64,000 bases of DNA from Deltaproteobacteria bacterium. Lineage in GTDB: Bacteria > Desulfobacterota > GWC2-55-46. Of the stretch, positions 36,321 to 48,274 are shown one piece after another; position 1 is the stretch's first letter, and every line of letters begins with the position of its first letter. The notes under the pieces were generated by a model. That model saw only the letters and a list, made by a program, of their open reading frames with translations. It was not told the DNA's origin and ran no database searches. Made by a program: the position numbers and the translations under genes. The stretch covers positions 1 to 64,000 of the forward strand of contig JACRET010000043.1 of the NCBI GenBank assembly GCA_016218105.1, given 5' to 3'.

Positions 36321-37493
36321 ATGTATAAGAAGATACTCTTCTGCCTCGACAATTCGGACTCCGCCAACAGGGGCGTGGACACCGGGCTTAATATCGCAAG
36401 GGGTTTTTCAGCCTCTGTCACAGGGTGCCACGTCTACGCCGCGCGGCTCCACAACGACAGGTTCCGCCAGATGGAAGGCGGGCTGCCTCCCGAGTACCAG
36501 AAGGAAGAAATATTAAAAAACCAGCGTGAAGTCCACGATTCCCTTATCACAAAGGGCCTTAAAATAATCTCCGACTCATACCTGGCCCCTTTCCTCGCAA
36601 AGGTAAAATCTGCGGGGCTCGACGGCCTCGGCGTAAGCAGGGAAGGCAAGAACTTCGATGAGCTGGTAAAGGAGACAAACGAGGGCGGATACGATCTGGT
36701 TGTAATGGGCTCCCTCGGCCTCGGAAAGACCGAAACAAGCCGCATCGGCAGCGTTACAGAGCGGGTCGCAAGGAGGGTTCGGACAGACCTCTTTATCTCT
36801 AAAGACACCTCAAACTCATCAGGCAGTATAACCGTAGCGATAGACGGAAGCCCATCGTCTTTCGGCGGCCTCTTAAGCGCCATTAAGCTCTCGAAGGCAT
36901 TAAATTTGAAGATCGAGGCGATAAGCGCCTTCGACCCGGATTTTCACCAGACCGCCTTCCGCTCTATCGCAGGCATACTGTCGGAAGAGGCCGGAAGGGT
37001 CTTCCGATTCAAAGAGCAGGAACAGCTCCATGATGCGATAATCGACAAGGGCCTTCAAAGGATTTACCGTGAGCACCTCTCCACAGCCTCGGATATGGCG
37101 GATAAAAACAATGTCTATTTAAAGACAACCCTTCTTTCAGGCAAACCGTCGAATGAGATAATCAAGCACGTAAGAAAGACAAACCCCTTTCTCCTGGTCC
37201 TCGGGCGTATTGGCGCGCATTCGTCCGCCGGCCTTGATATCGGCTCCACTACCGAAAACTGTTTAAGGGAAGCACTGTGCGATGTTTTGATCTCATCGAA
37301 GGAATTTACCCCTCTTATCAATAAATCCGGCGGCATTGAATGGGATGGCGAGGCAGGGAACATCCTCACATCCATACCTTCATTCGCCCGTCCCATAGTC
37401 AGGAACATGGTCGAGGACGCCGCGAGGAAAAACGGCATCTTAAGGATAACAGCTTCATTCATGCGAACTATCCGCAAGGACATGGAAGGCTAA
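36321..37493 (+). CDS. Tandem universal stress protein with C-terminal PCP_red-like domain
   Basis: A 390-residue protein. Two USP (UspA-like) domains span about 1-160 and 168-330. The first shows VVMGSLGLGKTETSRIGSVTE and the second LLVLGRIGAHSSAGLDIGSTTEN, both degenerate versions of the ATP-binding G-x2-G-x9-G(S/T) motif. The last 55 residues (WDGEAGNILTSIPSFARPIV... ARKNG) look like Pfam PCP_red (light-independent protochlorophyllide reductase C-terminal domain). It lies five bases before a radical SAM gene that ends in the same kind of domain, so the two are probably functionally linked. A TACGAT -10-like box precedes the ATG. Confidence 0.8.
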   Translation: MYKKILFCLDNSDSANRGVDTGLNIARGFSASVTGCHVYAARLHNDRFRQMEGGLPPEYQKEEILKNQREVHDSLITKGLKIISDSYLAPFLAKVKSAGLDGLGVSREGKNFDELVKETNEGGYDLVVMGSLGLGKTETSRIGSVTERVARRVRTDLFISKDTSNSSGSITVAIDGSPSSFGGLLSAIKLSKALNLKIEAISAFDPDFHQTAFRSIAGILSEEAGRVFRFKEQEQLHDAIIDKGLQRIYREHLSTASDMADKNNVYLKTTLLSGKPSNEIIKHVRKTNPFLLVLGRIGAHSSAGLDIGSTTENCLREALCDVLISSKEFTPLINKSGGIEWDGEAGNILTSIPSFARPIVRNMVEDAARKNGILRITASFMRTIRKDMEG

Positions 37494-37498
37494 CCCTT

Positions 37499-38725
37499 AT
37501 GGACGCATCCCTTTCCACCCCTTTTCTCATCTCATGGAACATCACAAAAAGCTGCAACCTTAAATGCGCCCACTGCTATCTTGACGCCTCCGAGCTCGAT
37601 GGCAAAGGGGACATCTCCACCTCTGAGGCATTAATCTTCGCCGACAGGATAGCCGAGGTAAACCCGAATGCCATGCTCATCCTTACAGGCGGCGAGCCGC
37701 TGCTGCGCCCTGATATTTTTAAAATAGCGCGGTACGCAGGGAAGCAAGGCCTGACCGTAGTCCTCGGCACGAACGGAACCCTTATACAGAGGGATACGAT
37801 ATCCAGGCTGAAAAACTCCGATATAAAAGGCGTCGGTATAAGCCTGGACTCCCTGACGCCCGGACTCCATGACCGTTTCAGGGGAATTCCCGGCTCATGG
37901 GAAAAGGCCATGAACTCCATAGAACTCTTAAAGGAAGGCGGGATAGACTTCCAGATACAGTTCACCGTCACAAATGAAAATAAGGGAGAGCTGGACAGGC
38001 TCTTTGGATTTGCATATGAAAAAGGCGCGCGCGCATTAAATATCTTTTTTCTTGTATGCACAGGGCGGGGGCAGAAGATGAGCGATATCGCCCCTTCCGA
38101 GTACGAAACCATATTAAGCCGGATAATCCGGGCAGAATCGGAATATGAAGGGAGGATGATGGTGCGGGCCAGATGCGCCCCTCATGTCCTCAGGGCGGCT
38201 TCCACCCTTGACCCGTCAAGCTCTCTCGTAAAAGGCGGTACCTCAGGCTGCATAGCCGGAAGGGGCTATCTGAGGATATCCCCGGAAGGGCTCGTTACCC
38301 CTTGCCCGTACATTCCCGCTGCCGCTGATTCGATGAGCCTTGGATCAAACGGACTCAGGTTTATACTTGAGCATGACAAGGCTTTTAAAAGCTTAAGAAA
38401 CCCTGTCTACAACGGACGGTGCGCGGAGTGCGAGTACGGCGAGAGTTGCGGCGGCTGCAGGGCGCGCGCCCTCTCCACCCATGGCGACCTCATGGGAGAG
38501 GATAACTGGTGCGGATATATTCCCCCAAGCAACGGGAAGAAAACCACTGAAAAATCCATCGGCCCTGTCTGGACTCCCGAAGCGGCTGAACGCCTTGAAA
38601 AGGTCCCCGGCTTTCTGATGCCCATGATAAAAAAAGGCATAGAGAGCTACGCCAGGGCAAGGGGCTTGTCCGAGATCACGCCTGAGATGATGGCTGAGCT
38701 GAGAAAAAAGGCCGGGAGGCGGTGA
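37499..38725 (+). CDS. Radical SAM/SPASM protein with C-terminal PCP_red-like domain
   Basis: A 408-residue radical SAM enzyme. I place the start at the ATG at 37499 (GGAAGG upstream), not at an earlier in-frame codon inside the preceding gene. The SAM cluster is CNLKCAHC at residues 19-26, and TGGEPLLRP is the GGE motif. A SPASM-like Cys region follows (CIAGRGYLRISPEG, then CAECEYGESCGGC). The fold and order resemble NirJ/AhbC/AhbD haem-side-chain enzymes and peptide-modifying maturases. Residues about 355-408 (WTPEAAERLEKVPGFLMPMI... ARARG) match the PCP_red pattern. The substrate is unknown; a tetrapyrrole or peptide modification is plausible. Confidence 0.85.
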   Translation: MDASLSTPFLISWNITKSCNLKCAHCYLDASELDGKGDISTSEALIFADRIAEVNPNAMLILTGGEPLLRPDIFKIARYAGKQGLTVVLGTNGTLIQRDTISRLKNSDIKGVGISLDSLTPGLHDRFRGIPGSWEKAMNSIELLKEGGIDFQIQFTVTNENKGELDRLFGFAYEKGARALNIFFLVCTGRGQKMSDIAPSEYETILSRIIRAESEYEGRMMVRARCAPHVLRAASTLDPSSSLVKGGTSGCIAGRGYLRISPEGLVTPCPYIPAAADSMSLGSNGLRFILEHDKAFKSLRNPVYNGRCAECEYGESCGGCRARALSTHGDLMGEDNWCGYIPPSNGKKTTEKSIGPVWTPEAAERLEKVPGFLMPMIKKGIESYARARGLSEITPEMMAELRKKAGRR

Positions 38726-38910
38726 GCGGGATGAATAGAAAGAAAGGCGCCGGAAAGCAATTCTTCGGCTGCGTGCTCCTGGGGCTCGGGCTGCTCAACA
38801 CACTGCTTACGCTTAAGGCTGGGCTTTCGCCGGACATTTTCAACTACGCCCTTATGATCTCCGGCGCGGTCTTTCTTTCCGCAGGCATATGGCAGGGCAG
38901 AAAGACCTGA
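38722..38910 (+). CDS. Small two-helix membrane protein, unknown
   Basis: A 62-residue protein (or 59 if it starts at the ATG at 38731) with two predicted membrane helices (FFGCVLLGLGLLNTLLTL and YALMISGAVFLSAGIW) and basic ends. The GTG start overlaps the stop of the radical SAM gene, so it is translated in the same operon. I do not recognise the family. Confidence 0.6.
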   Translation: MSGMNRKKGAGKQFFGCVLLGLGLLNTLLTLKAGLSPDIFNYALMISGAVFLSAGIWQGRKT

Positions 38911-39279: not shown

Positions 39280-40797
39280 CTAATCCCTTCGCGCGCTTTT
39301 AAGCCATAAAAGCTCCAGCAAAAAAACCGCTACGACCGCCCCGGCCACCCACGCATAGGCCTTGCTGCCTGCTTTTCTCTCCAGTATTACGGAGTGCCAC
39401 CCGGTCATCGCGTGCTTTCCGCCCCTGTCTCCGTTAGAGCCGTCCCAAGCGGCGAAAGCGACCGGGATAAACCTGCCCTCCTCAAAACCGATATCGTTTT
39501 CATCCGATGGTCTCAGAGGCCTTTTAAATATTACCCGCCATCTGCCCTTTTCGTAGCGGCCCCTGGCAGGTACGGCGGGGGCGGCTTCCTCCAGATTCTT
39601 AAAACCCCTGGCCCTGATTACCTTCGAGGACTGCGAAAGCCCCGCGCCTTCTTCGCTCTGCCAGTGCCATATTACAACCGGCCTTGAATCTCCCATCCCG
39701 AAATAGGGTTTCTCATTCTCTTTCCCTGTCGTGGCTGGGAACTCTATCGCCACCCCGTCCCTGAAAACCTCTCCATCTGCCAATTCAATCGACTTTTCGT
39801 CCCCGGGCGCCGATCTGGTGGCGTCGTCCCACTCAACGAGAAACGCTATCTCGTTTTCATTATAAAGCGCCTTTACGGACAAGGAATTGAGCGTTGGCCT
39901 GAACTGCCTTTCATCGGCTATTAACTGGGGAACAAGATAAAAGCTTGTAAATTCCGCCTTATCCCACAGAGAGTCATTCGCCTCCTCCGGGAGCCTTCCT
40001 TCCACTTTAGCGGCCCTTATAAATGATTCGTCCCCGGGTTTTTTGTAAGCCGCATTAAGAGATGCGACGTAGTTCGCCACGTCCCATCTCTCCCCGTCAG
40101 ATAATTTCTTTTTACTCTGCGGGTCGGCAAAGCTCGGCATCTGCGTGCCGGGTATGCCGACGGTTATCCTGGTGTATATGTCTCCCGCTGAACTGCCCGC
40201 CCTGTATGTCCAGCCCTTCGTAAGGTTCCTCGGCCAGGTGCGCGCCCCCCAGTCGTCCTTCAATTTCTTTATGCCGTCACCCATGCCCTCTTCGCCGTGG
40301 CACTCGGCGCACCTGTCCTTGAAGGTGTCCCGTCCCCGCTCAATGGATTCCTTCGAGGCCTTTTGCGGCTTTATCCCGATAGTAGGCTTTTCTGGAGGCT
40401 CAAGACCGGATAAGCCCTTAAGATAGGCCGCGAGATCCCAGATCTCCTTATCGCTCAACACATCCGACCAGCCCGGCATGGAAGTATCGTTCATCCCGTT
40501 CCAGCCCGGCATGGAATCATGCGAATAGCCGCTTATCATCTTGTATAAATCCTGATCGCCTGGCGCCATCTCATCGAATGGTGTCGTCTTCCATTTATAC
40601 AGGCCGAGGGTAAAATCCCGCGGAGGAGGACTAAGGAACTCAGCCGCCGGGCCGTCGCCTGCGCCGTCCTTTCCATGACACCACCAGCAACGCTTGGCGT
40701 AGATCTCTTTTCCGGCCGCGGGATCGCCCGAAACCGCGAAAGCAACCCCCGGCGCGAAGAAAAACAATAATGCAAATATTATAAACGCCCTTATCAT
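39280..40797 (-). CDS. Membrane-anchored dihaem cytochrome c with EB_dh-like haem b domain
   Basis: A 505-residue protein with a signal peptide (residues 1-21). It has two class I cytochrome c domains with haem motifs CWWCH (37-41) and CAECH (about 165), then a long beta-rich domain resembling the ethylbenzene dehydrogenase/DMSO reductase gamma subunit (EB_dh) haem b module (VEGRLPEEANDSLWDKAEF, WHWQSEEG, FIPVAFAAWDGSNGDRGGKH). It is anchored by one C-terminal helix (about 482-500). It probably sits on the periplasmic face and passes electrons between c haems and a partner. It is the last gene of the CydA-like operon. A local duplication repeats the MPGW segment (HDSMPGWNGMNDTSMPGW). Confidence 0.85.
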   Translation of the reverse strand: MIRAFIIFALLFFFAPGVAFAVSGDPAAGKEIYAKRCWWCHGKDGAGDGPAAEFLSPPPRDFTLGLYKWKTTPFDEMAPGDQDLYKMISGYSHDSMPGWNGMNDTSMPGWSDVLSDKEIWDLAAYLKGLSGLEPPEKPTIGIKPQKASKESIERGRDTFKDRCAECHGEEGMGDGIKKLKDDWGARTWPRNLTKGWTYRAGSSAGDIYTRITVGIPGTQMPSFADPQSKKKLSDGERWDVANYVASLNAAYKKPGDESFIRAAKVEGRLPEEANDSLWDKAEFTSFYLVPQLIADERQFRPTLNSLSVKALYNENEIAFLVEWDDATRSAPGDEKSIELADGEVFRDGVAIEFPATTGKENEKPYFGMGDSRPVVIWHWQSEEGAGLSQSSKVIRARGFKNLEEAAPAVPARGRYEKGRWRVIFKRPLRPSDENDIGFEEGRFIPVAFAAWDGSNGDRGGKHAMTGWHSVILERKAGSKAYAWVAGAVVAVFLLELLWLKSARRD

Positions 40798-40834
40798 ATC
40801 AACTGTTTTTATGGCTCCCTGAGGGTATAAGAGA

Positions 40835-41611
40835 CTACCTCGGCCTGTTCCCGGTATAGTCGTACAAAAAAAGTATCACCTTCCAGACCTCTTCCTCCGT
40901 GAGCTTATCCTCCCACGCAGGCATCGAAGAAAGCCCCGGCCCTCCTTCCGCCGGCAGCCCCGGCCCTCCCTTTACAATCCTCCAGAACACGTATGATTCC
41001 TTAAGCTGCGCTATCGTATCCTTCCCCTGAAACGGCAGCGGCCGCGGGGTCAACCCATGCGCGTAGTGCCCTTTTCCGTCGAGCTTATCCCCGTGGCAGA
41101 AAAAACAGTTCTTGAAATAGATTATCCCGCCCTCGTTTGCAAGCTCCTTAAGCCTTTCCGGGCCCAGTCCCCTGTCAGAAGGGTCTTCATTCAACGCCCA
41201 GGGCTCTCTAAAAGGGTTCTCAAGCGCGGCGAGGTCGAACGTCTTTCCGTACGCGTTGATATTTGAAGGCGGCGCAGGATGGACTGACCTGAGTGCGGGA
41301 GGCGCCTCTACGCCCGCGCTTACGAAACCATAAGTCAGATATCCGGCCACCAGAGGCAGAATCGCAAAGACCACATTCCTCACCGCCGCCTTATCCGGGT
41401 CTTCAACAAGGGCCCTTACGGGCCTTACAAGCTCCTCCGCGGCTTCATCGGTAGAGGTCATCACAAGCAGGGCCGTTACGATGACAAAGAACATGTACAT
41501 GAATATGAGGCTCTCCGGTATGGGCTTCCCCATAACCCACCCCGGGGCCTTGAATGCCGAGTAGGCAGCGATGACCGCTATCAGGAATTGTCCGAGCTTC
41601 GGTATCTTCAT
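40835..41611 (-). CDS. Membrane protein with C-terminal cytochrome c domain
   Basis: A 258-residue protein. The N-terminal part has three hydrophobic segments (about 7-25, 34-52 and 78-99). A periplasmic class I cytochrome c domain follows, with haem motif CFFCH (169-173) and the distal Met probably in LSSMPAWEDKL. It overlaps the next upstream cytochrome gene by four bases. The fold resembles the diheme/monohaem c subunits attached to bd-superfamily or Alternative Complex III-like enzymes, but I cannot assign a named family. Confidence 0.8.
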   Translation of the reverse strand: MKIPKLGQFLIAVIAAYSAFKAPGWVMGKPIPESLIFMYMFFVIVTALLVMTSTDEAAEELVRPVRALVEDPDKAAVRNVVFAILPLVAGYLTYGFVSAGVEAPPALRSVHPAPPSNINAYGKTFDLAALENPFREPWALNEDPSDRGLGPERLKELANEGGIIYFKNCFFCHGDKLDGKGHYAHGLTPRPLPFQGKDTIAQLKESYVFWRIVKGGPGLPAEGGPGLSSMPAWEDKLTEEEVWKVILFLYDYTGNRPR

Positions 41612-42129
41612 TCTTTTGCTTCCGCAGGCGCTTTCATGGCCGTGGGTTCTACCCCCGCCTTCTTTTGGAGGTAAGCTATAACGGCGTTTACCTCCAGCTC
41701 GCTTAATCCAATCGCGCCAGAGGTCACGTCCGGCATGGGAGAGACCGTATCATCAGTCCCTGCCGCCCCGAATCCAGCCACCACATAGGCTGAAGGGTTT
41801 ATCATTGATTCACGGATATACCCTTCGGTATCCTTCGCGGCTCCCTTGTATTTCGGGTCTTTAAGCCTCTCTGCGGCTACGGCGGCGATATCCTCGATCA
41901 GAGGCGCCCTCCCGCCAACTGGATTATGGCAAAGGGTGCATGCCCCTTTTCCATTATAGACCTTCTCTCCAAGGGCTGTGAAGCCCTCAAGGCCCATTGA
42001 CGACAGGTCGATTGCCTCATCCTTCGGAGGCGCTTCAGGTTTCATGTCAGGGACATACTTTACGGAAAAAAGGGTGTAGACCGCGATAACCGCGAGGCTG
42101 AAGGCCGCTATTTTAAGGAGGTTATTCAT
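41608..42129 (-). CDS. Membrane-anchored monohaem cytochrome c
   Basis: A 173-residue protein with an N-terminal uncleaved anchor helix (5-22) and one cytochrome c domain. The haem motif is CTLCH (64-68), with a probable Met ligand in DTVSPMPDVTSG. It overlaps the CydA-like gene by eight bases and the next cytochrome gene by four, so translational coupling and a common complex are likely. The tail is Ala/Lys/Glu-rich. Confidence 0.85.
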   Translation of the reverse strand: MNNLLKIAAFSLAVIAVYTLFSVKYVPDMKPEAPPKDEAIDLSSMGLEGFTALGEKVYNGKGACTLCHNPVGGRAPLIEDIAAVAAERLKDPKYKGAAKDTEGYIRESMINPSAYVVAGFGAAGTDDTVSPMPDVTSGAIGLSELEVNAVIAYLQKKAGVEPTAMKAPAEAKE

Positions 42130-43948
42130 CGGCGCCGCCCCGCGTTTTTCCGAACCGTGCCTGGCTCAGCCAGAATATGAATATCACTATCGCCATGAAT
42201 ATGATCGTGCCAGCAGAGACCACCTTTGAGGCATAACCGATACTCGGGGTGAACGCGTCCGGCGAATTGTCCCTCATTACGGAGAACACATGCCAGTGCT
42301 GCCGTATGGCCGATCTCACGAACCCCATGAGGCCCATAAGCCATGTGAAAGACACCGCGATAAGAATCAGCGCGTACTGGCTCCTTCCTGGCATCCTCCC
42401 CCATCTAAACGGGCCGGCCTCTTTCGCGCCCCGGAACATCAGAACCTCTATCGCCATGCACGATACGATCACAAAAAGCGTCGATACGACCTGCGGCACG
42501 GATGAAGCGACCTTATAAACCGTGTTAGTAAAATATCCGTAATAGACGCCCAGGAAGATTATGTTGATTACCGCCGCCATAATTATCGCGGCCTGGGCAT
42601 AATTGCCGTACGCCGCCCATTTGACGGCCGCCACCTTATTAGCCCTCCTGTATAAAAGAAAGCTGATAAAAGTAGCTATAAGCATTATGTTTACGGCGAT
42701 GTTTTTCGCCGGCATCAGCCCCAGGGGCCCCAGATAAGGATGGTACTGGCCGCCCAAGGCCCTGACCTCGGAAGGCGTAAGTATCAGAGTGTGCGGGGTG
42801 AACCAGACAAGAAAGGCCGCCGCGATAACGAACCCGATGTATTTGATATACTTCGTGTACCTGTACCCCCCTTCGCTCCTCGACATCCCGCACCAGAGGT
42901 AATAGTTAGCCGCTAAGAACAGCGCCCCTATTATCACGGCCTGGATGATAAAGAGCCAGGCGAAGATGCCGCCCATGAGCGTTATCCCCATCTGCTGGCT
43001 GTAGGCATATATCTCGGCGGTAAGCCAGTATCCGGCGAAAGGCAGAGGGAGGAGCGCGCCTATCGCTATAAAATTCGACGTATACCCCATCCAGTCATAA
43101 TGCGCCCTCTCCTCATCCGTGGCTGAGTTTAAGAACCTGTATGCGGCGTAGGCCCCGACGATAGAGCCTCCGTAAGCGATATTGGCTATGTACCTGTGAA
43201 GATTCATAGGGTTCCAGAGATGATTGTTAACGGCGTGCCAGACATTCCCTCCGAAGCTCCCCAGCTTATCTACACCCGCAGGCGACATCATGAACGTCAC
43301 CCAGGCGTTGGCTATGAACATGATGGCTGTCCCGGCCAGATTGAGCGTTATCCCGACGCACAGGTGCGCCCACTTCTTAAGGCCTGAGTCCATCCTCTTC
43401 CAGCCGTAATAGTATGTATAGAGCGCGGCATTCTCAACAACGAACAGGATCACATATAGCGTTGCCGTGGGGCTGAAAATAGAGGCGAGGTATCTCATGA
43501 GGTGGGGATAGAACGCGACAAGGGAGGTCAAGAGCAGTATTCCCGTTATCGCCGTCACCGAGTACGCCGTAATGCTTACCCGTATGAACTCGTACGCCAT
43601 TTTGTCATAGCGCCTGTCCCCGGTATACATCCCTATCGCCTCTATTATAAGGACGAATATCGGGACAGCCAGAACAAACGCCGCGAACCAGAGGTGCATC
43701 TGCGCCGCCATCCACACAGCTACCCTCGGCCGTACTATCTTCATCTCCGGATAGTCCTCCGCCTTTAGCTTTGGCGCGGGAGGATAGGGATTGGACGCCT
43801 CTTTTACCGCCGCGCCTTCAGCCGGGGCCGCGGCGATACAGACGCTTGCGCCCTCTGGAATGAAAGACGGCAGCGCGATAGAAATAAAAACGGATAAAAG
43901 GAGGGCTGATATGATTTTTTCAAATGCCTTGCCGACAAAGGAGATCAC
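42122..43948 (-). CDS. CydA-like (cytochrome bd superfamily) membrane subunit with signal sequence
   Basis: A 608-residue protein. A long N-terminal extension with signal-like hydrophobic segment (about 10-40) and proline-rich linker precedes a CydA-like core of about 13 helices. The first core helix carries AAQMHLWFAAF, matching the position of the b595/d ligand His of CydA. Later His-rich loops include HAVNNHLWNPMNLHR. The canonical Q-loop motif GRQPW is not visible; the equivalent stretch reads GYWLTAEIYAYSQQMG. No cydB is present. These traits fit bd-superfamily members that lack the quinol site, which I recall from Nitrospira-type bacteria, with electrons supplied by the adjacent cytochromes c. 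The start is GTG. Confidence 0.8.
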   Translation of the reverse strand: MISFVGKAFEKIISALLLSVFISIALPSFIPEGASVCIAAAPAEGAAVKEASNPYPPAPKLKAEDYPEMKIVRPRVAVWMAAQMHLWFAAFVLAVPIFVLIIEAIGMYTGDRRYDKMAYEFIRVSITAYSVTAITGILLLTSLVAFYPHLMRYLASIFSPTATLYVILFVVENAALYTYYYGWKRMDSGLKKWAHLCVGITLNLAGTAIMFIANAWVTFMMSPAGVDKLGSFGGNVWHAVNNHLWNPMNLHRYIANIAYGGSIVGAYAAYRFLNSATDEERAHYDWMGYTSNFIAIGALLPLPFAGYWLTAEIYAYSQQMGITLMGGIFAWLFIIQAVIIGALFLAANYYLWCGMSRSEGGYRYTKYIKYIGFVIAAAFLVWFTPHTLILTPSEVRALGGQYHPYLGPLGLMPAKNIAVNIMLIATFISFLLYRRANKVAAVKWAAYGNYAQAAIIMAAVINIIFLGVYYGYFTNTVYKVASSVPQVVSTLFVIVSCMAIEVLMFRGAKEAGPFRWGRMPGRSQYALILIAVSFTWLMGLMGFVRSAIRQHWHVFSVMRDNSPDAFTPSIGYASKVVSAGTIIFMAIVIFIFWLSQARFGKTRGGADE

Positions 43949-43957
43949 TGTTTACGG

Positions 43958-44110
43958 TTACCCCTTGAATATGAATGTGAGCCCTTGGGCGCTAAAGAGC
44001 GCGACATCAAGCAGCAGATAAAAAACCGAACATACCGCGAAAGCGATTAAAAAAAAGACTGCCGTTCTCACCCTGTCACCTGTTTCCGGGTCCCCTGCCC
44101 ATATTGACAT
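43958..44110 (-). CDS. Tiny single-helix membrane protein at the head of the CydA-like operon
   Basis: A 50-residue frame from ATG 44110: a charged N-terminus (MSIWAGDPETGDRVRTA), one hydrophobic helix (VFFLIAFAVCSVFYLLLDVALF) and a short tail. It ends nine bases before the CydA-like GTG. Its size and place recall the small accessory subunits of bd oxidases (CydX, CydH) and of haem-copper oxidases, but there is no sequence match I can point to. There is no strong ribosome site, so confidence is moderate. Confidence 0.55.
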   Translation of the reverse strand: MSIWAGDPETGDRVRTAVFFLIAFAVCSVFYLLLDVALFSAQGLTFIFKG

Positions 44111-44137
44111 TTACGGGAGTATTGGTTATCTTTAGGC

Positions 44138-44254
44138 ATGCTCAACCTTGCGCGCAAAAAAATCGGACCGGCCGATATCCTGATATTTTTGGGCGCCGCC
44201 GCAAATGCGGCCATACTTCTCTTTATTATCGCCGGCTATCTGCTAAGAAGGTAG
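44138..44254 (+). CDS. Putative 38-residue single-helix membrane peptide
   Basis: A plus-strand frame that begins ATGCTCAACCTTGCG and encodes a basic N-terminus (LNLARKKIGPAD) followed by one hydrophobic helix (ILIFLGAAANAAILLFIIAGY) and LLRR. It sits divergently between the cytochrome operon and the hyp operon. The ribosome site is weak. The amphipathic-plus-helix pattern with positive ends argues that it is real, but it may be chance. Confidence 0.35.
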   Translation: MLNLARKKIGPADILIFLGAAANAAILLFIIAGYLLRR

Positions 44255-44352
44255 CTTCCCCACCCCGGCCGCCGGCCATTTCAGGCGGCTCTTATTATAC
44301 TCTTGAACAACGCTTTTTTACAAGAAGTCCGGTAGATTATCCTCTTTTTTTT

Positions 44353-44361
44353 TGTTACAAT
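44353..44361 (+). promoter_or_regulatory. Extended -10 promoter of the hyp operon
   Basis: TGTTACAAT is an extended -10 element (TG plus TACAAT at 44356-44361). The predicted transcription start is about 20-25 bases before the ATG at 44392. No -35 box is seen, as expected for this class. Confidence 0.5.
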
Positions 44362-44391
44362 AAAATTAAGCCGACAAAACTGAAATCAACA

Positions 44392-44895
44392 ATGGCTCAG
44401 AGCAAGAAAAGAAAGGCCCTGATACTCGGCATCGGCAACATCCTCCTTAAAGACGAGGGGGTCGGGGTAAGGGCCATGGAGCTTTTTAAAGAGACTTATG
44501 AGCCCACCGAAGCCGTCTCCTGCGTTGACGGCGGCACCTCCGGGATAGGGCTCCTTTCCCTTATTAAGGATTTTACTCACATCATCATTTTCGACGCTGT
44601 ATCCTCCGATTCTCCTCCTGGCACAATACACAGATTCAGCGGGAAAGATCTTGAAAAAGGGCCTCCCCTTAAAACCACCGCGCACCAGCTCGGCGTAAAG
44701 GACCTTCTTCTGCTCTCCGCGTTTGAAGGGCATCGGCCCGAGGTCTCTATCATCGGGATCGTGCCGGGGAATATTTCAGCAGGCCTCGCCCTCACGCCTT
44801 TGATCAAGGGGAAACTCCCGGAGGCGATTGAGGCGGCGGCGGAAGAATTGACCAGGTTTGGCTTCAAGGTAAAGAAGAGGAAAAAAGATGCATGA
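44392..44895 (+). CDS. [NiFe]-hydrogenase maturation endopeptidase
   Basis: Cleaves the C-terminal tail of the hydrogenase large subunit after nickel insertion (HyaD/HybD/HycI family). It has 167 residues from the ATG at 44392; longer in-frame starts have no support. The motif LGIGNILLKDEGVGVRAM, the second metal ligand in VDGGTSGIGLL and the His in TAHQLGVKDLL are present. It leads the hyp operon and overlaps hypA by eight bases. No hydrogenase structural genes are in the window. Confidence 0.93.
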   Translation: MAQSKKRKALILGIGNILLKDEGVGVRAMELFKETYEPTEAVSCVDGGTSGIGLLSLIKDFTHIIIFDAVSSDSPPGTIHRFSGKDLEKGPPLKTTAHQLGVKDLLLLSAFEGHRPEVSIIGIVPGNISAGLALTPLIKGKLPEAIEAAAEELTRFGFKVKKRKKDA

Positions 44896-45229
44896 AATGT
44901 CGATAATCAAGGGGATCATCGGGATAATCGGAAAAGAGATGAAAAAGAGCAAGCTTAAGAAGCTTCACGCGGTTAAGATAAAAGTAGGCGAGCTTACGGC
45001 CGTTGAGCCCGAGACCTTAAGGTTCTGCTTCGAGGCGTCGATAAAGGACACGCCGTGGGAGGGCGCGCGCCTTGAGATAGAGGACGTCCCGCTGACCGGC
45101 AAGTGCCGCGACTGCCATACCAAATTCCGTTTTCATAATTTCGTAAGCATCTGCCCGGTATGCAGGGGGAGGGCTATAGAGAAGCTCACAGGCACGGAGC
45201 TCGACTTGGTCTCGATAGACGCAGTCTAG
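44888..45229 (+). CDS. hypA: Hydrogenase nickel-insertion protein HypA
   Basis: Nickel metallochaperone that works with HypB. It has 113 residues. The N-terminal MHEMSII contains the nickel-binding Met-His, and the structural zinc site is CRDCHTKFRF...CPVCRG. It overlaps the peptidase gene and is followed 14 bases later by hypB. Confidence 0.96.
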   Translation: MHEMSIIKGIIGIIGKEMKKSKLKKLHAVKIKVGELTAVEPETLRFCFEASIKDTPWEGARLEIEDVPLTGKCRDCHTKFRFHNFVSICPVCRGRAIEKLTGTELDLVSIDAV

Positions 45230-45243
45230 AGGATAGAATAAAA

Positions 45244-45936
45244 ATGCACGACATACTGATAGAAGAAAAAATACTTTCAAGGAACGACGCGATAGCCGCC
45301 GATAACAGGAAGCTGTTCCGTGATAAAAACATATTCGCGATAAACATGGTCAGCTCGCCTGGCGCGGGCAAGACCACGCTGATCGAAAAAATGGTCCCGT
45401 ACCTTAAAGAGAGAGTTCAGAATTTTTCTGTAATCGAGGGAGACTTGGCCACCGACCTTGATTCGCAGAGGCTTTCGAAATACGGGGTACCCGTCAGACA
45501 GATAAATACAGGCAAGGCCTGCCATCTGGACGCCCACAATATCAGCCATGTGCTGCCGTGGCTATTCGAACAGCAGGATACCAGCCTGCTCATAATAGAG
45601 AACGTCGGGAATATGGTCTGCCCAGCCGAGTACGATCTGGGCGAGGACATGATGGCAACCGTGATGAGCTCGACCGAAGGCGATGACAAGCCCCTCAAGT
45701 ACCCGGCGATATTTAACGCATCCGACGTGCTCATAATCAACAAAACAGACCTCGTGCCTTATACGAACTTCGATATCGGGCGCGCGAGGGAGAACGCCTT
45801 GAAGATAAACCCGAACCTCGTCATATTCGAAACATCCTGCAAAACAGGTATGGGCGTCAGGGAATGGAGCGATTACCTCTCCGATTCCGTCAAGAACCGC
45901 CCTGTTTCGGGGAACCGACCCCTCAGCGAGGGATAA
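45244..45936 (+). CDS. hypB: Hydrogenase nickel-insertion GTPase HypB
   Basis: GTPase that drives nickel transfer. It has 230 residues, starting at the ATG at 45244. The P-loop is SSPGAGKTTLIEK. The metal-site Cys and His are in TGKACHLDAHNI, with a further Cys in NVGNMVCPAEYDLG. The G4 motif is NKTDL. There is no N-terminal His-rich or CCxxC nickel-storage segment, so it is the short form. It lies between hypA and hypF. Confidence 0.97.
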   Translation: MHDILIEEKILSRNDAIAADNRKLFRDKNIFAINMVSSPGAGKTTLIEKMVPYLKERVQNFSVIEGDLATDLDSQRLSKYGVPVRQINTGKACHLDAHNISHVLPWLFEQQDTSLLIIENVGNMVCPAEYDLGEDMMATVMSSTEGDDKPLKYPAIFNASDVLIINKTDLVPYTNFDIGRARENALKINPNLVIFETSCKTGMGVREWSDYLSDSVKNRPVSGNRPLSEG

Positions 45937-45937
45937 A

Positions 45938-48274
45938 GTGGACGACAGCGCAAGGATACATATAACAGGCATAGTACAGGGAGTGGGCTTTCGCCCCTTT
46001 GTCTATAACCTGGCAAGCCGCCATAACCTGAAGGGCTTTTGCCTCAACGACTCTGAAGGAGTGATCATCGAGGTTCAGGGTGGCGCCATATCCTCGTTTA
46101 TAGAAGAGCTTAAAACCTCCGCCCCTCCTCTCTCAAAGATCGAGACCATCACGGTAGAGCCTTTAAGCAGAAGCGGGGTATTCACGGATTTTACCATCAG
46201 GGAAAGCAGCGCCCAGGAAGGCAAATTCGTCCTCGTCTCCCCCGACATCGCCATATGCGCCGATTGCTTCAGAGAGCTCTTCGACCCGGCTGACAGGAGG
46301 CATCTCTATCCGTTCATAAACTGCACGAACTGCGGGCCGAGGTATTCGATAGTCAAGGACATACCCTATGACCGCCCGCGCACGACTATGGCAAAGTTCA
46401 GCTTATGCGAGGAGTGCTCAAAGGAATACCACGACCCGGCGAACCGCCGCTTTCATGCCCAGCCGAACGCCTGCTGCGCTTGCGGCCCAAGGGTTTGGCT
46501 TGGCGGAAAGGACGGAGGTGAAATCAGCGCCGGGGGCAATTTTGAGGTTATTAAAAAAGCGCAGACCCTTTTGAAAGACGGAGCGATACTTGCCATCAAG
46601 GGCTTGGGCGGATTCCACCTGGCGTGTGACGCCGCGAACGGCGACAGCGTCAAGAGGCTCAGGAGGAACAAGCGGAAGTCTTACATGAAAGACAAGGATT
46701 CAAACAAGCCCTTCGCGGTAATGGCCCCGGATGTAGCCACGGCAAGATCATTCGCCGCGATATCTGAATTAGAAGAAAGGCTACTCAAAGACCGCGTCCA
46801 CCCGATAGTGCTGCTCTCCAAGAACGGCGGGAATGCCTTATCAGAATCCGTCTCTCCTGATAACAGGTTTTACGGGACGATGCTCCCTTATACGCCGCTC
46901 CATCATATATTGTTCCATGGCGCGGGCTTTAACACCCTTGTGATGACCAGCGGCAATCTATCGGAAGAGCCGATAGTGACCTCAAACGATGAGGCGGTCT
47001 CAAGGCTCTCTGCGATAGCCGACAACTTCCTCCTCCACGACCGTGACATTTACATGAGGGTCGATGACTCGATCACGAGGGCGGAGGGGAAAAAGATAAA
47101 AATACTGCGCCGGGCCAGAGGCTATACGCCCGACACCATAGGCCTCGATGAAGGGATGGAAGAGATCCTCGCCTGCGGCCCGCTTCTTAAGAACACATTC
47201 TGCATCACAAAAGGAAGGCACGCCATCTTAAGCCAGCACATAGGCGATCTTGAGAACTACGAGGCGCTTCTATTCTACAAGGAAAGCTTAGAGAACCTTA
47301 AGAACACATTCAAGGCCAGACCCGGAATAATAGCCCATGACATGCATCCGGACTATATGAGCACAGGCTTTGCGCTCGAATACGCCAGGGAGAACCACAT
47401 ACCCGAGGATAAGATAATCCCCGTCCAGCACCATCACGCCCACATAGTAAGCGTCATGGCCGAGCACGGGTTAAAAGGCGGGGTAATAGGCGTCTCGTTT
47501 GACGGCACCGGATACGGCACGGACGGCAATATCTGGGGCGGAGAGTTTCTGATAGCCTCCAGACGGGATTTCAAGAGGGCCGCGCACATCGATTATGTCC
47601 CTCTTCCAGGCGGAGACCGGGCGATAAAGGAGCCCTGGCGGATCGCGCTCTCCTATCTCATCAACACATACGGGCTTAAATCCGCCGGAGCGGAGGCAAA
47701 AGAATTCTTCGAGAGGTTCGATTCAAGGGAGATCGAACCCGTCTTACAGATGCTGGAAAAGGGGCTCAACTCTCCCCTCACCTCAAGCGCCGGGAGGCTC
47801 TTTGACGCCGTCTCTTCGATCATCGGCGTAAGGGACAGGATCACCTTCGAGGCGGAGGCCGCGATAGAGCTGGAATCGATCGCCGATATCGGCTCCGCCC
47901 TTTCCAAAGGCCCTTACCCGTATGCCTTCATCGAGGGAGAGCCTTTCAGGATAGATTTAAAGCCCCTCATAAGGGCGATAACGGCCGACAAGAAAAGCGG
48001 CCTCGGGAATCCCATAATTTCAGGAAGGTTCCATCTTACAATATCTGATATAATAGTAAACTCAGCCAGAAAGATTAAGGATACCAGCGGTATAAATACC
48101 GTAGTCTTAAGCGGCGGGGTCTTCCAGAACAAGACCTTATCAAGCCTCGCGGAAGAGAGGCTTGATAAAGAGGGCTTTAACACCGTGTCAAACGAGAGGG
48201 TACCCGCCAACGACGGAGGTATATCCCTCGGCCAGGCCGTTGTCGCCTGGGAAACAGTCAAAGGAGAAAGATAA
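45938..48274 (+). CDS. hypF: Carbamoyltransferase HypF
   Basis: Makes the thiocarbamate precursor of the cyanide ligands using carbamoyl phosphate and ATP. It has 778 residues. Domains in order are acylphosphatase (HITGIVQGVGFRPFVYNLA), two zinc fingers (CADCFRELF...CTNC; CEECSKEYH...CCACG), a YrdC-like domain (about 200-390) and a Kae1/carbamoyltransferase-like domain with HHHAHIVSVMAEHG and SGGVFQN. It starts with GTG one base after hypB. Confidence 0.97.
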   Translation: MDDSARIHITGIVQGVGFRPFVYNLASRHNLKGFCLNDSEGVIIEVQGGAISSFIEELKTSAPPLSKIETITVEPLSRSGVFTDFTIRESSAQEGKFVLVSPDIAICADCFRELFDPADRRHLYPFINCTNCGPRYSIVKDIPYDRPRTTMAKFSLCEECSKEYHDPANRRFHAQPNACCACGPRVWLGGKDGGEISAGGNFEVIKKAQTLLKDGAILAIKGLGGFHLACDAANGDSVKRLRRNKRKSYMKDKDSNKPFAVMAPDVATARSFAAISELEERLLKDRVHPIVLLSKNGGNALSESVSPDNRFYGTMLPYTPLHHILFHGAGFNTLVMTSGNLSEEPIVTSNDEAVSRLSAIADNFLLHDRDIYMRVDDSITRAEGKKIKILRRARGYTPDTIGLDEGMEEILACGPLLKNTFCITKGRHAILSQHIGDLENYEALLFYKESLENLKNTFKARPGIIAHDMHPDYMSTGFALEYARENHIPEDKIIPVQHHHAHIVSVMAEHGLKGGVIGVSFDGTGYGTDGNIWGGEFLIASRRDFKRAAHIDYVPLPGGDRAIKEPWRIALSYLINTYGLKSAGAEAKEFFERFDSREIEPVLQMLEKGLNSPLTSSAGRLFDAVSSIIGVRDRITFEAEAAIELESIADIGSALSKGPYPYAFIEGEPFRIDLKPLIRAITADKKSGLGNPIISGRFHLTISDIIVNSARKIKDTSGINTVVLSGGVFQNKTLSSLAEERLDKEGFNTVSNERVPANDGGISLGQAVVAWETVKGER

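Follow-up and report, generated by a model that had tools for sequence, protein, structure and literature searches.

A conserved operon for a putative cytochrome-c-linked bd-type complex without CydB in a nitrite-reducing bacterium

The 64,000-nucleotide stretch of DNA analysed here (the window; positions 1 to 64,000 of contig JACRET010000043.1, deltaproteobacterial assembly GCA_016218105.1) contains five open reading frames (ORFs), all on the minus strand and spanning 39280-44110, which form an operon around a CydA-like protein. This CydA-like subunit lacks both a CydB partner and the residues of the quinol site, and it is encoded together with three cytochromes c and a haem b domain, in support of the initial annotation of this DNA. 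The operon is real and well conserved, and gene clusters of its kind have been described before. Its occurrence is far beyond chance, because a scan of genome contigs identified 151 relatives of the CydA-like gene and the gene order recurs among them. We predict, with a probability of roughly 45%, that the operon encodes a cytochrome-c-fed O2 reductase of the bd kind, a five-protein membrane complex useful in cells that make nitric oxide (NO). Of the two gases, O2 is the likelier substrate.

The CydA-like protein and its cytochrome partners

All five ORFs of the operon as first described were confirmed, with gene ends that overlap or are closely spaced:

43958-44110, minus strand: tiny single-helix membrane protein of 50 amino acids (aa), ending in ...LLLDVALFSAQGLTFIFKG; ORF without a Pfam or NCBIfam match
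42122-43948, minus strand: CydA-like subunit of the bd superfamily, 608 aa, GTG start, predicted N-terminal signal or anchor helix and 14 long helices (PF01654, 8.6e-21)
41608-42129, minus strand: putatively membrane-anchored cytochrome c, 173 aa, one CxxCH (weak Pfam cytochrome c match)
40835-41611, minus strand: putatively membrane-anchored cytochrome c, 258 aa, one CxxCH (Cytochrome_CBB3, PF13442, 1.2e-8)
39280-40797, minus strand: dihaem cytochrome c with an EB_dh haem b domain and a C-terminal hydrophobic helix, 505 aa, alternative-NxrC-like (PF00034 twice; PF09459, 1.3e-22)

A 9-base spacer separates the end of the tiny gene from the start of the CydA-like gene, whose stop overlaps the start of the following cytochrome c gene by 8 bases. 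The two anchored cytochrome c genes overlap by 4 bases, and a 37-base gap lies between the 258 aa cytochrome c gene and the dihaem-EB_dh gene. Locus counts are based on the best 80 of the 151 relatives. ORF clustering of these 80 and the window revealed a recurrent order in most loci, namely CydA-like, cytochrome c, cytochrome c and dihaem-EB_dh. Five loci (L020, L028, L061, L067 and L073) showed no core gene in the gene clustering, a greedy-ORF artefact; tblastn detects the core gene there. The 173 aa cytochrome c has a hydrophobic N-terminus, and 62 of its 83 cluster members carry two CxxCH motifs, while one CxxCH is found in 83 of 85 members of the 258 aa cluster. A tail like that of the tiny protein (D-x-A...QGL..F) was observed just upstream of CydA in at least 26 relatives among 66 loci with room for it; this strict-pattern count is a lower bound.

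The PF01654 match is confined to residues 75-309 of the CydA-like protein. An AlphaFold model built from a 59-row alignment (pLDDT 81, pTM 0.82) contains one N-terminal helix and, after residue 70, 14 helices of at least 19 residues, with extra helices replacing the Q loop. Using VIA-align, the whole chain was found to fit ten solved bd structures (Z 28.7-32.5 over 345-359 residues), and Foldseek agrees. The next-best structural group consists of alternative complex III subunits; membership of that complex was rejected, as the common fold reaches a Z of 16-19, well under the bd matches. Judged by this predicted structure and the significant PF01654 match, the CydA-like protein belongs to the cytochrome bd superfamily.

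Residues were compared in an alignment of 74 short CydA rows and 21 long rows (95 bd-like rows in total) with 13 canonical rows. Two of the short rows are copies of the window gene (WIN and L001; L001 was removed from the tree). Canonical CydA was recovered from 13 of 30 loci, of which 12 were aligned together with E. coli CydA, and one row is mis-framed, giving counts such as 12/13. We take His19, Glu99, His186, Met393 and Glu445 to be the haem ligands of E. coli CydA, Glu99 and Glu445 being ligands of the two active-site haems. The His19 position, equivalent to His85 in the window protein, is kept in 74/74 short and 20/21 long rows (94/95), and the Glu107 and His186 positions are kept in all 95 bd-like rows. 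The Glu99 position is occupied by Tyr in all bd-like rows and the Glu445 position by Gly, Ala or Ser; Met393 is without a counterpart in an unsure region of the alignment. Three other histidines, His386, His403 and His553, do not vary across the 59-row alignment and could be new haem ligands. At the positions of Lys252 and Glu257, which we take to be quinol-site residues of E. coli CydA, all 95 bd-like rows show a gap and a Tyr, respectively. The missing GRQPW motif had been read as loss of the quinol site; these two positions bear out the loss, but not the equation of GRQPW with the quinol site itself. The motif position reads IRQHW in the window protein and RQHWH or RGDWH across the family.

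A single PF01654 gene and no PF02322 match were found in the window genome, so that no cydB was identified elsewhere in the genome either. With E. coli CydB as the tblastn query, cydB was detected near the operon in 0 of the 80 relative loci, compared with 30 of the 30 canonical loci that served as positive controls. In the tree, canonical CydA sequences separate from the bd-like clades with a support of 100, and the CydA-like protein does not group with quinol-oxidising CydA. The missing quinol residues, the missing CydB and the cytochrome c partners support a cytochrome-c-linked enzyme as the best reading, as had been proposed. An ordinary quinol-oxidising cytochrome bd, with its CydB lost or displaced, would account for the common fold and the partial PF01654 match; however, the separate clade, the absent quinol residues and the 0/80 count make it highly improbable.

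Additionally, the 505 aa protein scores 113 bits against TIGR03477, under the cut-off of 169.85. Its residues 28-248 match PDB entry 6h5l_B (8.4e-35), titled "Conserved hypothetical cytochrome protein", which is putatively Kustc0457 of Kuenenia, a protein that serves the nitrite reductase Kustc0458 as redox partner. The EB_dh part matches 7b04_C, subunit C of nitrite oxidoreductase (NXR), at 1.7e-15 and 2ivf_C, the gamma subunit of ethylbenzene dehydrogenase, at 6.5e-11.

Operon duplication and co-occurrence with nitrite reductases

Many alpha- and gammaproteobacterial loci have two tandem sets of the four genes, separated by two further cytochromes. The corresponding CydA and CydA' proteins form two separate deep clades in the tree, and quick trees of the three partner families split likewise (1, 1 and 2 label changes). 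Since each of the four genes of the CydA set groups (nearly) apart from its counterpart in the CydA' set, the four-gene sets appear to have travelled together. This pattern of gene trees indicates that the whole operon was duplicated long ago; in Nitrospira, bd-like_3 and bd-like_4 echo this duplication (PMC6606698). The window genome has the first (CydA) type only. One locus, L062, was called CydA' by length, yet it lies within the CydA clade. Within the EB_dh part, Met368 is kept in 51/60 CydA-set rows and replaced by Arg in 19/19 CydA'-set rows, and His462 is invariant in the CydA set and Met in the CydA' set. Both were considered as haem b ligands; no ligand claim is made.

Further copies were observed in individual genomes. 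Two loci of one genome of the same class (L155 and L156) represent two extra CydA'-type operons besides a CydA-type one, each ending with a universal stress protein (USP) gene. Locus L128 (G244:C234) contains two adjoining, very divergent bd-like genes (ORFs of 690 and 939 aa), about 21-23% identical to the window protein and outside both clades.

The window genome encodes NarGHJI and two NarK-like transporters, recognised by eye from length, order and sequence, together with a cd1-type nitrite reductase (NirS) and a NirJ-type haem d1 gene (best models NirJ1/NirJ, under cut-off). A cbb3 oxidase above cut-off and an A-type-looking oxidase cluster are also present. From this gene content, the host reduces nitrate and nitrite and possesses other oxidases. 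Two haem-copper proteins of the same genome (L147:15028-16422 on contig C104 and L148:1466-3010 on contig C11) lack, by eye, the usual Tyr four residues past the active-site His, with Phe or Gln in its place, and are possibly unconventional NO reductases.

The cd1 and molybdoenzyme scans covered 51 bearer genomes, with 30 of the 80 relatives, mostly on short contigs, left out. A strong cd1 match (E below 1e-100) was found in 27 bearers and any cd1 match in 38. Among 297 genomes of the window's phylum, where an operon homologue was defined by E<1e-200 (two intermediates, then a gap to 1e-13), strong cd1 occurs in 7 of 15 operon bearers versus 1 of 282 other genomes. In the Gallionellaceae, 20 of 158 genomes bear the operon. 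NirS is present in 16/20 bearers versus 35/138 others, and NirK in 7/20, one of them just below the model cut-off, versus 12/138. The Fisher values ignore kinship among these genomes and overstate their independence, both for nirS or nirK (18/20 bearers versus 44/138 others, p 8e-7) and for cydB (0/20 versus 36/138, p 0.004). The tie to nitrite reductases and the lack of cydB in one well-sampled family point to a general role in NO-exposed respiration. Moreover, hosts beyond the slow-growing nitrifiers, such as the iron-oxidising Gallionellaceae, are now offered for the study of the complex.

Known relatives and competing interpretations

The four-gene arrangement is already known from Nitrospira, Nitrospina and anammox bacteria. 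In N. moscoviensis, bd-like_3 is accompanied by two membrane-bound cytochromes c and a dihaem alternative NxrC with one transmembrane (TM) helix (PMC6606698). This is the same gene set as in the window (PMC6606698; PMC8026999), so the arrangement cannot be called "not commonly described". The bd-like/alternative NxrC arrangement is also reported to be conserved in anammox bacteria and Nitrospina (PMC6606698, PMC8026999). The window operon matches this set (bd-like protein, two membrane cytochromes c, dihaem NxrC-like protein) by description, the EB_dh part being the sole portion compared by sequence with NXR subunit C (7b04). A second bd-like copy lies nearby in Nitrospira, likewise in about 20 proteobacterial loci here, whereas the window genome, again compared by description, is a NirS/NarG denitrifier with a single copy and no type-II periplasmic molybdoenzyme above cut-off. 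The window genome is not shown to be Nitrospirota: the nearest named relatives are "Deltaproteobacteria" metagenome-assembled genomes, and none of the best 80 of the 151 relatives is titled Nitrospirota.

The NXR-linked bd-like oxidase of Nitrospina and Kuenenia, as described, has in common with the window system 14 TM helices, no Q loop, no quinol residues and an alternative NxrC that has membrane helices and carries two haem c (PMC3578206, PMC8026999, PMC6423088). In those organisms the bd-like gene belongs to a conserved set with NXR genes, while in the window it lies beside hydrogenase-maturation genes and a radical SAM/USP pair. In the literature of 2013-2025 consulted here, which shows no terminal-oxidase activity, the function of the module is unsettled and usually treated within nitrite oxidation; the roles proposed for the Nitrospira, Nitrospina and anammox version are NXR anchor, reverse electron transport and terminal oxidase (PMC6606698, PMC3578206). 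The OR-N enzymes, bd-superfamily members without a quinol site, are proposed to be cytochrome-c-oxidising O2 reductases, an activity that is unproven (PMC10839748). By description, they share with the window system the missing quinol site, a putative cytochrome c donor and CydA/CydA' paralogues, the latter in relatives (PMC10839748, PMC12342949); the window genome has one CydA-like gene, and the CydA/CydA' tandem is found in many relatives. With E. coli CydAB, the window protein shares the fold over the whole chain (Z ~30) and the His19, Glu107 and His186 positions. It differs in the absence of CydB and quinol residues, the replaced Q loop, the replaced Glu99 and Glu445 and the cytochrome c partners.

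The new elements here are the denitrifier setting, the pattern of nitrite reductases and cydB, and the whole-operon duplication. No earlier report of the module in nirS denitrifiers was found in the open full-text literature, a search that left subscription papers uncovered and does not prove novelty. The accessible text of a Gallionellaceae pangenome paper treats cydAB and denitrification genes and makes no mention of this operon.

In the O2 reductase that we favour, the five proteins would join in one membrane complex. The part with the EB_dh haem b and the dihaem c, together with the pair of anchored cytochromes c, would accept electrons from periplasmic carriers and hand them on to the 14-helix bd-like core, where the gas, most likely O2, would be reduced at the haem held by His85. 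Canonical cytochrome bd tolerates NO. A cytochrome-c oxidase of the bd kind would be useful to NO-making cells because bd-type enzymes have this tolerance, which would be an advantage to cells producing NO. Several observations weigh against this proposal. With Glu99 and Glu445 replaced and Met393 lacking a counterpart, the protein may hold a different haem set, and O2 chemistry cannot be taken for granted. The window genome needs no further oxidase, because cbb3 and A-type-looking oxidases are encoded. Furthermore, 8 of the 15 bearers in the window's phylum are without strong cd1, which also speaks against a strict link. In the Gallionellaceae, nir occurs in 7 of 36 cydB genomes, so cydB and nir tend to avoid each other, and the absence of cydB from bearers may follow clade structure because cydB genomes rarely carry nir; the kinship that inflates the Fisher values counts here as well. 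Finally, strictly anaerobic anammox bacteria are reported to keep the module (PMC8026999, PMC3578206).

A conduit without gas chemistry is a less probable alternative, though one to be taken seriously. Here the core would link periplasmic cytochromes c and the quinone pool by reverse flow, or merely anchor haem proteins. Two usual active-site ligands are replaced and the fold also resembles, at Z 16-19, that of alternative complex III membrane subunits, while the loss of all bd-type quinol residues and the retention of the His19 equivalent in 94/95 rows argue against a conduit. Such a role has been put forward for the Nitrospira/Nitrospina/anammox version, and the module is reported in strict anaerobes (PMC6606698, PMC3578206). 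It appears rather improbable that the operon supplies a partner or membrane anchor for a periplasmic NXR or another type-II molybdoenzyme through the EB_dh domain, despite the matches to NXR subunit C and the ethylbenzene dehydrogenase gamma subunit and the adjoining NXR genes described for Nitrospina, Kuenenia and Nitrospira (PMC3578206). With the TIGR03479 model, for which Nitrospira-type NxrA was not among the controls, a type-II molybdoenzyme alpha subunit was found above cut-off in 0 of the 51 bearers, and only four matches (G306, G335, G340 and G344) were near full length. In the window genome, the model matches best to NarG, an enzyme of the narGHJI cluster that faces the cytoplasm. NarG-size matches occur in at least 23 of the 51 bearers; this count is without a control, and no link between operon and nitrate reductase is claimed. 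That the module occurs where no obvious periplasmic NXR is encoded, and is linked to NO-forming nitrite reductases instead, weakens the NXR-only view.

The remaining alternative, a bd-superfamily NO reductase or other NO-consuming enzyme reducing NO from NirS or NirK with electrons from cytochrome c, is unlikely, although somewhat less so than a molybdoenzyme partner. The altered active-site ligands, the co-occurrence with NO-forming nitrite reductases (both kinds within a single family, NirS in a further phylum) and the reported occurrence of the module in NO-handling anammox bacteria all fit it. Against it, we know of no bd enzyme that acts as an NO reductase, and haem-copper NO reducers may do the job, the window genome having the two Tyr-less haem-copper-like proteins. 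In Kuenenia given NO but no nitrite, the level of the cydA-like transcript dropped five-fold, and the protein was undetected (PMC6423088). A more specific version, improbable in our estimate, predicts a cytochrome-c-fed NO reductase on the bd fold that is common to denitrifiers, nitrite oxidisers and anammox bacteria and whose haem would be supplied or modified by the NirJ2/AhbD-like radical SAM protein described below. If true, a bd-fold NO reductase would stand outside the haem-copper and flavodiiron families.

Neighbouring genes

Three genes on the plus strand lie downstream of the operon:

38722-38910, plus strand: small membrane protein, 62 aa, without a Pfam match (cluster 7, in 27 loci, often at the downstream end of the operon)
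37502-38725, plus strand: radical SAM/SPASM protein with a C-terminal PCP_red domain, candidate accessory gene (PF04055, PF08369)
36321-37493, plus strand: protein with a double USP domain and a C-terminal PCP_red domain, candidate accessory gene (PF00582 twice, PF08369; in 34/80 relative loci)

The radical SAM protein resembles the haem-making NirJ2 (TIGR04055, 1e-86) and AhbD (TIGR04545, 4.8e-86), with both matches under cut-off, and its gene was observed on 31/80 relative loci, or 28/47 of those with 7 kb of downstream sequence. The PCP_red domain is otherwise known from protochlorophyllide reductase. A protoporphyrinogen oxidase gene is also located near the operon in 20/80 loci; together with the radical SAM protein, it looks like a putative haem-related helper, suiting a complex with unusual haem. 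The radical SAM/USP pair is kept beside the operon across several proteobacterial groups, even by a CydA-like gene of 39% identity (L158).

On the other side of the operon, divergent hydrogenase-maturation genes were observed at 44104-48274 (plus strand), comprising a maturation-protease-like ORF and HypA-, HypB- and HypF-like ORFs recognised by eye. About a dozen relatives likewise have these genes (clusters 9-12) upstream of the operon. Upstream of one CydA' operon, the ORF L036:3-647 shows by eye a cupredoxin-like His/Cys/His/Met pattern and in Pfam a carboxypeptidase-regulatory-like tail only; matches to it are present in 13/80 loci.

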